From assembly GCF_019972815.1 (NCBI RefSeq), contig NZ_BPPA01000001.1:248001-312000 (forward strand): a stretch of 64,000 nucleotides of DNA. Direction: 5' to 3'. Under the pieces are notes generated by a model. It did no database searches. It was not told the origin of the DNA and was given only the letters and a program-made list of their open reading frames with translations. Source of the DNA: Lactobacillus huangpiensis (lineage in GTDB: Bacteria > Bacillota > Bacilli > Lactobacillales > Lactobacillaceae). Both the position numbers and the translations under genes were made by a program. Shown here piece after piece: positions 46,585-50,721 of this stretch. Numbering within the stretch: the first letter of the stretch is position 1; every line of letters starts with the position of its first letter.

Positions 46585-46613
46585 TTCAATATGCAAACAG
46601 TATTTGTTATAAT
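46585..46613 (+). promoter_or_regulatory. Promoter of the type I toxin
   Basis: Extended -10 TGTTATAAT (TATAAT at 46608-46613) with a weak TTCAAT 17 bp upstream. Confidence 0.6.
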
Positions 46614-46714
46614 TAATTTAGAATTCAAGCAAATTGTTTTGAGGGCAGTTGGCTGTTGATCTGGAAAGGAGATGGTGCCTATGGCACGAAATCTTTTAGA
46701 AAGAGAAGCAGTTA

Positions 46715-46804
46715 ATGAGCGTTTACCAGGCATTACAAATAATGTTGGCATTCGCCACGTTTATTATTGTGCTGTTAGATTATATCAATAATCACAAGAA
46801 ATAA
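46715..46804 (+). CDS. Type I toxin, putative holin-like hydrophobic peptide
   Basis: A 29-residue peptide beginning MSVYQALQIMLAFATFIIVL and ending DYINNHKK. It has a short polar start, one membrane span of about 18 residues and a charged tail. This is the pattern of the Firmicute TxpA/BsrG and 'putative holin-like toxin' family of type I toxins, which damage the membrane when expressed. The leader region has AAGGAGATGG at 46664-46673, about 40 bases upstream, where a second start in another frame (46681) may matter for translational control. Downstream lie two hairpins and an opposing promoter that would make an antisense RNA. The gene is recognised by sequence pattern; toxicity is inferred from the family. 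Confidence 0.82.
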   Translation: MSVYQALQIMLAFATFIIVLLDYINNHKK

Positions 46805-46805
46805 A

Positions 46806-46932
46806 AAGACCGTCCCAATCATACTTTAGCAAGTCGAGGATAGTCTTCTATATTCCTACTCAGTTAACCGCCTTTAGAGCGGCTGCTTGTTTTCAAAGAG
46901 GTCTTGTTAGCGCAAGGCCTCTTTTCTTTACA
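46806..46932 (-). ncRNA. Candidate antisense RNA antitoxin
   Basis: A minus-strand TATAAT (46943-46938) would start an RNA near 46931. It would run leftward over the 3' end of the toxin mRNA and stop at a weak hairpin followed by T5-A-T3 (46852-46806). It would overlap the toxin transcript's last ~120 bases, the RatA/txpA arrangement. The -35 is weak. Confidence 0.55.
46895..46927 (+). terminator. Terminator of the toxin mRNA
   Basis: Arms AAAGAGGTCTTG / CAAGGCCTCTTT followed by T-rich sequence. Confidence 0.85.
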
Positions 46933-46944
46933 ATTAAATTATAT

Positions 46945-47319
46945 CATGACTGAATTAATTTTGCACAAGTGGACTGAGTCAGGGATTGCATGTTGCCATT
47001 TATAATCGTTTTTTTAACAGTTACAAAATAGGATTAAGGAAAAAATTAGTGCTAACGGGAAACTGTTCAGTATAAATATTAAAAGAAAATAAAATTATCT
47101 TATTGACTTTTAAAGATTCAAACCTTATTATTTTGGTTATCTAATATTTATTTTTTATTAATTTTAAAGCCTGAGTTTTAATAATTAAGCTAAAAATTTC
47201 TTCACATGGCTTATTGGACAAGCTTAAGAGCAATATTGAATTTAAAAATGAGTATACATACTATAAGTGATGAACTAGACTAACAAATTGCTATTTAAAA
47301 AATATTGGACGGGAAAACT
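46945..47319. other. AT-rich gap before ABC exporter
   Basis: No gene or strong promoter recognised. It must hold the promoter of the exporter at 47320. Confidence 0.4.
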
Positions 47320-49260: not shown

Positions 49261-50721
49261 CTAATATTTTTCTGGCATTGTTTTTCTTGAAAGACCATAC
49301 ACAGAATATTCATAATTAGTTAGGTATGCTAGTTTTCCTTGCATTTGTAAACGTCTCGTGGCTTCTTTGACCTCGGAAATTGCTGCCTTATCTGAGCTAT
49401 TAATTTCTTTGGCCTTTTTTAGTGCATCATCATAAAGTTTGAAACCAGAAGCTTTATATCCATCAGTATTGTGAACTGCATTTTCCTGATCAATTTCCTT
49501 TTGGAGGTCTTTTTTATCTGCTGCAGTTGCTATTTTCGCATCTGCTTTAGCTTCATCAACCGTATTAAGAGGTTTCAAAAATGGACCAGAAATATATTTA
49601 CTGTCAGCAGCTTTGATGAATGACATATGTTCTTCATTGTTTTCTTCAAAGTTGGTGTGCGTAAAGCCATTTACGTCACCTAAATGATAGTAGAGCTCAG
49701 CTTTGTTGTCCTTATTCGACCAAATGTATAACAATTCATCAACCGGAATTTTTTCGCCCTCAATAAAGGTCGTTAGACCTGCTTTATCAACCTGATTTGG
49801 TCGTAAGTCTCCATTAGCATCAAAAATATCAGTTCCAGAAGTAATTAGAACATAGGTGTCAGCGGTAAAAGTCAGCAGCCTTTGTCTTGGCTCTTTTTGT
49901 ACGTATGATTTAGGAAACCAGCCAGTTTTTGTCCCACTAATAATGTAACTTGGTGAACTGGTTGGATCATACCTAAATAGCGTTTCACGGTTAACTTTTA
50001 TTTTTTGTAAAGGCTTAACCGTGATTTGCTCTTTGCCCAAGCCAATCTGAACTCCTTTGGAGTCAATATCCTTTGGACTAATTGTCACTGTTGCTTCTGC
50101 GACATAAAGGGGCTTGTTATCAATGTTGCCAATATTGGCCGCATTAACATAGCCACCGGCTCCAATATTGTAGTAATATTTACCACCGATTTTTTTATAA
50201 GGGAGCCATGACTGATTATAGTTGTCATCATTGACTAGGAAATACTGTTTGCTATTCCGGTCAATTTTTTCTACAGAGCCAGAGTATTTCAAAGGGGTGC
50301 CTTTGCGCAAATGCGTATTCTTTTTACTGCCACGGAATTTGTATAGCCGTTTACCATTCTTATCGTAAACATAAGAATTGTAATTGAGCTCCAAGTTGCC
50401 ATCTTGTACCTGTTTGTTAACAACACCAACATTAGCCGCCTTAACGTAGGCACCACCGGTTAAAGGATAGTAGCTTTTACCATTAATCGAAGTTGTTTTG
50501 GCATTACCGTTTACGGTGGTGCCCATACGTATAGTCTTCTTACCGTTATAATAGGTGCGCTTGCCCTGAGCCGTATAAACATAAGAATTATGATTCAACG
50601 TGAGAGTATCAGTCTTAGCAGCTACTACTTCTGTATTGCTTGGCATTACTGCGGGTAGCATAGGACTAATAGCAAGAATGCTTGCTATGGAACCATAAAC
50701 GAATTTTTTATTTAATTTCAT
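49261..50721 (-). CDS. SLAP-domain surface protein with shared C-terminal module
   Basis: A 486-residue secreted protein with a signal peptide ending near VVAAKTD. Two SLAP-type repeats lie at about 40-105 (HNSYVYTAQGKR...AYVKAANVG) and 110-205 (YNSYVYDKNGKR...GYVNAANIG). The central and C-terminal part includes VDELLYIWSNKDNKAELYYHLGD and KPLNTVDEAKADAK, which match the C-terminal parts of the three SLAP proteins at 55.7-59.4 kb. A Lys/Glu/Ala-rich helical tail of ~90 residues follows. It is non-covalently wall-bound by inference from SLAP. Confidence 0.85.
   Translation of the reverse strand: MKLNKKFVYGSIASILAISPMLPAVMPSNTEVVAAKTDTLTLNHNSYVYTAQGKRTYYNGKKTIRMGTTVNGNAKTTSINGKSYYPLTGGAYVKAANVGVVNKQVQDGNLELNYNSYVYDKNGKRLYKFRGSKKNTHLRKGTPLKYSGSVEKIDRNSKQYFLVNDDNYNQSWLPYKKIGGKYYYNIGAGGYVNAANIGNIDNKPLYVAEATVTISPKDIDSKGVQIGLGKEQITVKPLQKIKVNRETLFRYDPTSSPSYIISGTKTGWFPKSYVQKEPRQRLLTFTADTYVLITSGTDIFDANGDLRPNQVDKAGLTTFIEGEKIPVDELLYIWSNKDNKAELYYHLGDVNGFTHTNFEENNEEHMSFIKAADSKYISGPFLKPLNTVDEAKADAKIATAADKKDLQKEIDQENAVHNTDGYKASGFKLYDDALKKAKEINSSDKAAISEVKEATRRLQMQGKLAYLTNYEYSVYGLSRKTMPEKY

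Follow-up and report, generated by a model that had tools for sequence, protein, structure and literature searches.

A putative chromosomal type I toxin-antitoxin locus of Lactobacillus with a conserved overlapping leader ORF and a predicted two-state mRNA

Results

Gene content and signals of the locus

The window, that is, the whole 64,000-nt stretch of DNA analysed here, carries in its 46585-46950 region a short forward-strand ORF that a preliminary description had reported as a gene of 29 codons at 46715-46804. The ORF is present and encodes MSVYQALQIMLAFATFIIVLLDYINNHKK, 29 aa followed by a stop codon, which is the small hydrophobic product typical of a type I toxin-antitoxin system. In a profile search against the holin-like toxin family, the peptide matched Pfam Hol_Tox over its whole length (residues 1-29) and well above the cut-off (Table 1); no other Pfam family was matched, and with NCBIfam the peptide stayed below the cut-offs of both ComI (NF052249; 33.5 bits, cut-off 55) and PepG1 (NF041589; 19.8 bits, cut-off 70). 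At the RNA level, the Rfam rli28 match overlaps the toxin ORF and stops inside it, short of the 3′ UTR. Rfam BsrG (RF01412) aligns end to end and in place at 46664-46920 but reaches 41.1 bits against a cut-off of 55, and RatA (RF01776) lies on the correct strand and in the correct place (46936-46844, minus) but scores 28.3 bits against a gathering threshold of 49. Because these two models align in place but below their cut-offs, the toxin is, as judged by profile matches, a Hol_Tox member on the BsrE/BsrH side and not on that of TxpA/BsrG. Of the earlier label "TxpA/holin-like", the second half stands and the first gives way to BsrE/BsrH. The analysis was sequence-based throughout. A reading of the locus as a defence system was rejected, PADLOC giving no match.

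Further inspection revealed promoter and terminator signals on both strands, among them the two -10 elements and the terminator of the preliminary description. An exact forward extended -10 of the type present here (TGTTATAAT) occurs upstream of the toxin in 27 of 63 leader-bearing clusters (defined below), against 0.8% in mononucleotide shuffles. On the minus strand, the columns of the opposing extended -10 (TGATATAAT) are invariant or nearly invariant in an alignment of 34 genus-level relatives, and an exact antisense-type element 80-250 nt past the stop codon was found in 30 of the 63 clusters (about 1% in mononucleotide shuffles). Tolerating one mismatch raised the counts to 44/63 for the forward and 56/63 for the antisense element (shuffles, 17% and 19%). 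The strong terminator noted earlier corresponds to a predicted 13-bp hairpin. A generic consensus scan of the window returned neither promoter and not the terminator at 46895-46924, so that the assignment of all three rests on extended -10 identity, folding and conservation. The predicted toxin mRNA folds at -101.6 kcal/mol (z -5.24), a value that none of 100 shuffles equalled. The predicted antisense RNA covers the 3′ UTR of this mRNA and spares the toxin ORF, in keeping with the earlier suggestion of an RNA directed against the mRNA 3′ end; the minus-strand fold of 46795-46932 has a z of -3.68, and a strict antisense terminator pattern with a perfect stem recurs in 15 of the 63 clusters (1.2 in shuffles). 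Taken together, the Hol_Tox and rli28 matches and the promoters on both strands support, at the sequence level, the proposal of a type I toxin-antitoxin locus, and the region looks like a chromosomal one of the BsrE/BsrH-rli28-RatA kind.

Table 1. Features of the toxin-antitoxin locus, in window coordinates
Feature	Position	Strand	Evidence or remark
Rfam rli28 (RF01492) match	46598-46785	+	55.8 bits, gathering 45; model 1-186
Extended -10 TGTTATAAT of toxin mRNA promoter	46605-46613	+	sequence; exact in 27/63 leader-bearing clusters
Predicted toxin mRNA, about 311 nt	46620-46930	+	ends placed from -10 and terminator
5′ arm	46626-46655	+	partner of 3′ UTR (helix B); 46645-46657 alternatively with toxin start (helix A)
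Leader Shine-Dalgarno AAAGGAG, stronger of two	46665-46671	+	duplex -15.3 kcal/mol; conserved columns
Leader ORF, 36 codons plus stop	46681-46791	+	out of frame with toxin, overlaps toxin start
Toxin-proximal arm of helix A	46707-46716	+	holds first two bases of toxin ATG
Hol_Tox toxin ORF, 29 aa plus stop	46715-46804	+	PF16935, 48.8 bits, cut-off 23.3
Antisense terminator GACTATCC...GGACGGTC (one mismatch), then TTTTT	46803-46845	-	sequence
Predicted antisense antitoxin RNA, about 130 nt	46803-46931	-	predicted ends; sub-gathering RatA match
3′ UTR arm of helix B	46861-46889	+	folding; partner-swap z -13.7
Predicted toxin mRNA terminator, 13-bp hairpin then T-rich tail	46895-46924	+	folding
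Extended -10 TGATATAAT of antisense RNA promoter	46938-46946	-	columns invariant or nearly so in 34 relatives

Distribution and genomic neighbourhood

Profile searches found Hol_Tox in 51 of 75 genus genomes, 173 of 397 family genomes, 98 of 295 order genomes and 134 of 398 class genomes; these counts follow per-search thresholds on overlapping samples, and part of the matches were fetched for comparison. The peptide thus has the Firmicute homologues on which the preliminary description had made its reading depend, at the level of genus, family, order and class. On plasmids, tblastn (E up to 10) gave 614 records, mostly from lactic acid bacteria, and the homologues are annotated as "putative holin-like toxin" in 20 of 20 entries of one list and in 27 of 30 of another. 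Since these plasmid homologues carry annotation in NCBI records, the remark that the ORF is too short for routine gene calling holds only in part.

The nearest plasmid match comes from Apis mellifera. Relatives that share 97% identity with the flanking ABC transporter protein occur in Lactobacillus kimbladii (L255) and L. melliventris (L256), which we take to be bee-gut species, and the source Lactobacillus is probably from the bee gut as well. An identical toxin peptide adjoins the ABC transporter gene in both of these species. In the stretches fetched around this gene in L. bombicola (L258) and L. agrestimuris (L259), Hol_Tox gave no match, and next to it in an uncultured relative (L257) the match is truncated; the module therefore looks accessory.

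One further Hol_Tox match above the cut-off is present in the same genome, at C1:315025 (L002), roughly 3 kb after the window ends. It belongs to a different subtype: its leader closes with a TGATG in which the leader stop and the toxin start overlap, as is typical of translationally coupled genes. Multiple copies were also seen elsewhere. In L. melliventris (L256:145-3040), one Hol_Tox locus lies to either side of the ABC transporter gene (match 764-2344), which thus looks enclosed by direct repeats of the module; one genus genome (G049) has five same-direction copies within 3.5 kb (L071, 646-4097), and at L090 an intact copy is followed by one without a leader. Within the window, a minus-strand ORF at 49261-50721 encodes 486 aa, the start of which resembles a signal peptide; visual inspection also suggests repeated segments of a surface-layer-like kind.

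A conserved leader start ahead of the toxin

In the window copy, the toxin start lies 34 nt downstream of the leader start and at the weak site of the two: its Shine-Dalgarno duplex energy is -6.4 kcal/mol, against -15.3 kcal/mol for the leader ATG at 46681. These energies confirm the earlier observation that a second start in another frame has the sole good Shine-Dalgarno. For comparison, 256 unique loci with full context were kept from 270 hits with a start, and a leader was defined as an ATG with a Shine-Dalgarno of -11 kcal/mol or better no more than 75 nt upstream of the toxin. By this rule, a leader is present in 189 of the 256 distinct loci; the 67 leaderless loci, some of which are near misses (L015, L098 and L118), were excluded from the 63 clusters. 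Grouped by the search that fetched the locus, leaders were found in 82/96 genus, 41/43 family, 63/65 order and 3/52 class loci, where the order set contains a few same-family loci (L125, L129, L137 and L139), and the three class-set leaders come from a same-order genome (L161) and from one other family (L147 and L162). A strong Shine-Dalgarno on the toxin itself was found in 48/52 class, 6/65 order, 0/43 family and 5/96 genus loci. The conservation of the leader across the order supports, at the sequence level, the earlier idea that the upstream start may tune toxin translation.

Conservation of the ATG within the 63 leader clusters is given by construction, the ATG having been required. When the strongest Shine-Dalgarno was located first, in a second, distinct set of 63 clusters made from loci whose toxin lacks a strong Shine-Dalgarno, an ATG was adjacent in 44 and lacking in 8, a strong Shine-Dalgarno being absent in the other 11 (background 0.20).

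In 51 of the 63 clusters, the leader frame runs beyond the toxin start without a stop, against 26.3 expected from dinucleotide shuffles (z 6.7), and the other two frames over the same intervals are open in 17 and 25. With clustering at 70%, it is open in 15 of 17 clusters (expected 8.1; other frames 6 and 8); at 62% and 56%, 4 and 1 clusters are left (z 1.3 and 0.9) and the open-frame test says nothing. The distance between leader and toxin is spread over all three frames (27, 16 and 20 clusters). The leader ATG is in frame with the toxin in 20 clusters, 13 of them open, and out of frame in 43; in 12 of the 63, the leader stops after 2-11 codons, short of the toxin start. Mini-leaders of 2-5 codons, often M-V-stop, were seen at L055, L240, L241, L242, L137 and L035, mostly in other genera of the family.

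A leader that codes for a selected peptide was considered and rejected, since pN/pS in the leader frame is not lower than in the other frames and thus gives no sign of purifying selection. Pooled over 476 pairs, the ratio is 0.76 in the leader frame and 0.73 and 0.59 in the others; in 42 independent open pairs, it is 0.86 against 0.75 and 0.56. Because the frame is kept open without purifying selection on the peptide, initiation at the leader and passage over the toxin start seem to matter, whereas the leader product does not. On visual comparison, the surroundings of the leader start look like those of the toxin start in other Bacilli, and this resemblance suggests that an old toxin start was turned into a leader start, a polarity that we infer.

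Predicted competition between two helices

The 5′ arm of the mRNA has two candidate partners, the 3′ UTR (helix B) and the toxin-proximal stretch (helix A). Across the 63 clusters, each 5′ arm paired with its own 3′ UTR at -31.9 kcal/mol, compared with -25.1 kcal/mol for swapped partners, and with its own toxin-proximal stretch at -11.4 compared with -9.9 kcal/mol; 0 of 5000 permutations were as good in either case, and reversed-sequence controls gave z of -0.3 and -1.4. The median rank of the own partner among the 63 was 4th for helix B and 18th for helix A, which is the weaker case of the two.

Pair counts were made in an alignment of 34 sequences, restricted to genus loci whose leader lies 28-41 nt ahead of the toxin and whose identity stays below 88%. 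For helix B, 88.5% of cells are paired (shuffled, 85.9) with 17 double-changed cells (7.4), and for helix A, 94.1% are paired (89.5) with 13 double-changed cells (5.1). For either helix, none of 500 shuffles reached the observed percentage paired, number of double-changed cells or covariation score, and slid versions scored lower, a comparison that favours the named helices because they were drawn from one member (L016). Double-changed pairs and pair-type counts in the same 34 sequences were not above shuffles for helix A or B. From the 518-column alignment, RNAalifold recovered just 14 pairs and gave the 5′ arm a competing partner at columns 265-270, and for this reason the named-helix counts and the partner-swap test were used.

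In the full-length window RNA, 46645-46655 is predicted to pair with 46861-46871 (probability 0.96-1.0, one mismatch), and without the 3′ UTR the same bases are predicted to pair with 46709-46720 (0.97-1.0), a stretch that takes in the A and U of the toxin ATG, so that the predicted partner change is near complete. The mismatch in helix B of the window copy is an A-C, where the L091 copies have G-C. Folding was run on 42 of the 63 clusters in a first round and on all 63 in a second. On removal of the 3′ UTR, the unpaired probability of the toxin start falls by more than 0.1 in 38/63 clusters and rises in 1; with the 3′ UTR of another locus substituted, it falls in 20/63 and rises in 2. The toxin start of the window copy is mostly paired either way (unpaired 0.12 at full length, 0.09 without the 3′ UTR), and because of this the predicted switch would affect its accessibility less than its choice of partner; for the toxin Shine-Dalgarno, accessibility drops from 0.60 to 0.43. 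That of the leader Shine-Dalgarno is much the same in both folds (0.29 and 0.30, p 0.57), and folding therefore does not predict that the antisense RNA closes the leader in the way that Sok closes mok. Leader openness showed no link with helix A strength (-11.2 against -12.0 kcal/mol, p 0.28).

The 5′-3′ fold-back of the full mRNA is thus predicted and accompanied by covariation. The idea that such pairing is itself a novelty of Lactobacillales was rejected, as 34 non-leader clusters show it too (z -10.4; reversed control, z -2.4), and the Rfam BsrG consensus likewise pairs the 5′ end with the 3′ part.

Discussion

Relation to known systems

Loci of this kind, namely BsrE/BsrH, rli28/ratA and the rli28 of L. 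casei Zhang, are already known, as is 5′-3′ pairing, and Hol_Tox loci are mostly annotated as putative toxin or known as the sRNA rli28. According to the excerpted text of PMC6562991, BsrE/SR5 and BsrH/as-bsrH of Bacillus subtilis have toxins of 30 and 29 aa, and bsrE/bsrH-like systems have been noted in Lactobacillus and Enterococcus. The locus described here is alike in toxin size and in its predicted antisense RNA over the mRNA 3′ end; it differs in that the leader owns the strong Shine-Dalgarno, which in most class-search loci belongs to the toxin itself. On Listeria plasmids, a BsrH-like toxin overlaps rli28 with ratA opposite, and both rli28 and ratA are reported as expressed (PMC9484302, in excerpt); expression of rli28 is also reported in L. 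casei Zhang, in which a deletion strain grew better (PMC8249650, in excerpt). The window locus shares with these the rli28 match above gathering, whereas the excerpted descriptions in PMC9484302 and PMC8249650 mention neither a leader ORF nor a switch. With BsrG/SR4 it shares an end-to-end alignment to the Rfam model and the 5′-3′ pairing of its consensus; it is set apart by the sub-threshold score and by the overlapping leader, which is absent from the description of BsrG/SR4 in the available part of PMC6562991.

An overlapping leader ORF ahead of a small membrane toxin is described for hok/mok/sok and ldrX/ldrD (PMC4147584 and PMC8167048, both in part). The leader here likewise runs over the toxin start in a conserved manner, and the full mRNA is predicted to fold back as does that of hok. 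The likeness ends at the antisense RNA: in the partial accounts, Sok covers the mok region, whereas the RNA predicted here is confined to the 3′ UTR. It does not overlap the leader because its promoter is past the mRNA 3′ end and its predicted end, near 46803, is far from the leader start. The toxin also differs from those of hok and ldr in that its Pfam match is Hol_Tox alone.

Proposed mechanism and alternatives

We consider it probable, on the sequence evidence, that the locus is a chromosomal type I toxin-antitoxin module with a two-state mRNA and a mok-like leader. An mRNA of about 46620-46930 would encode the 29-aa hydrophobic peptide, and a convergent antisense RNA running from about 46931 to 46803 on the minus strand would cover its 3′ UTR and, if RatA and SR5 are a guide, promote its decay. 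The mRNA would adopt two mutually exclusive folds. With the 3′ UTR free, the 5′ arm (46626-46655) would be held by 46861-46889; with the 3′ UTR unavailable, being untranscribed, antisense-captured or removed, the 5′ arm would pair with 46707-46720, over the toxin ATG. This exchange is predicted by folding and supported by covariation, and its trigger is the part that we infer. The same fold in a transcript that has not yet reached the 3′ UTR would hinder early toxin translation, and antisense capture of the 3′ UTR could also free the 5′ arm to cover the toxin start, much as SR4 binding lengthens a helix that hides the Shine-Dalgarno in bsrG mRNA (PMC6562991, in excerpt). Against a switch of this kind counts the statement, in the same excerpt, that bsrE mRNA keeps its conformation when SR5 binds. 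Ribosomes would load chiefly at the strong leader site and translate the out-of-frame leader across the toxin start; their passage most likely opens the helix over that start, so that another ribosome could initiate at the weak site, as modelled on mok/hok. The leader would then most likely enable toxin translation, a sign of effect taken from analogy. A broader proposal, which we put forward tentatively as a possibility, is that Lactobacillales made the ancestral BsrE/Hol_Tox toxin start into a leader cistron whose translation, not product, gates a toxin that starts 30-53 nt further on, and that together with the switch this yields a mok-like ribosome-gated type I system with a 3′-acting antisense RNA.

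The main rival to coupling is that the strong leader site acts as a decoy, drawing ribosomes out of frame over the toxin start and keeping the toxin low. The large difference between the two Shine-Dalgarno energies in the window, the frame that is kept open across the toxin start without the peptide being kept, and the occurrence of all three frames in the leader-toxin distance would all fit such a role. The 13 clusters with an open in-frame leader speak against it, as translation there would extend the toxin and not occlude it. We regard this reading as somewhat unlikely and prefer coupling because mok, the established case of an overlapping leader, enables its toxin, and ldrX has been proposed to do likewise (PMC4147584 and PMC8167048, both in part). 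It is also conceivable, if quite unlikely, that the locus is an ordinary BsrE/BsrH-type system whose antisense RNA works solely through decay, the upstream Shine-Dalgarno being a ribosome standby site or a relic of the ancestral toxin start and leader elongation playing no part. Degradation is thought to be the sole action of RatA and SR5 (PMC6562991, in excerpt); the toxins of the class search mostly own a strong Shine-Dalgarno, from which the leader may be left over, and the leaders that stop early point the same way. A relic, however, would not be expected to preserve an open frame across the toxin start about twice as often as predicted by shuffles, nor to retain its Shine-Dalgarno and ATG in 63 of 65 order-search loci.

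That the leader start yields an N-terminally extended second form of the toxin has a precedent in the two toxins encoded by sprG1 (as stated in an abstract) and would suit the clusters with an open in-frame leader, but the leader is out of frame in most clusters and in the window copy, where an extended form is excluded by frame unless a frameshift joins the two; we hold this explanation to be very improbable. Hardly to be expected, too, is a decayed or non-functional remnant. The accessory character of the module, with its absence or truncation beside the related ABC transporter genes, would agree with decay, but the toxin peptide is identical at the L. kimbladii and L. melliventris loci, and the window copy retains its promoters, leader, helices and terminators.

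Significance

As far as the sequence comparisons go, the new elements appear to be an order-wide leader with a conserved open frame and a covarying competition between the toxin start and the 3′ UTR. A literature search, with most subscription journals outside it, found no description of such a leader or such a competition, nor, within the same scope, of a mok-like ribosome-gated type I system in Gram-positives. If the leader gates the toxin, type I control through an overlapping leader would not be confined to the Gram-negative hok and ldr systems, and the growth effect of the rli28 deletion in L. casei Zhang (PMC8249650, in excerpt) would gain a concrete candidate mechanism. The sRNA family rli28 would likewise become a two-state mRNA hypothesis open to testing. 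A separate observation concerns the hairpin just 3′ of the toxin stop (46808-46845), which bears a ACTTTGGCnAGTTA-like motif with strong conservation across the genus; on the minus strand, where it lies inside the antisense terminator hairpin, this motif could serve as a contact site.
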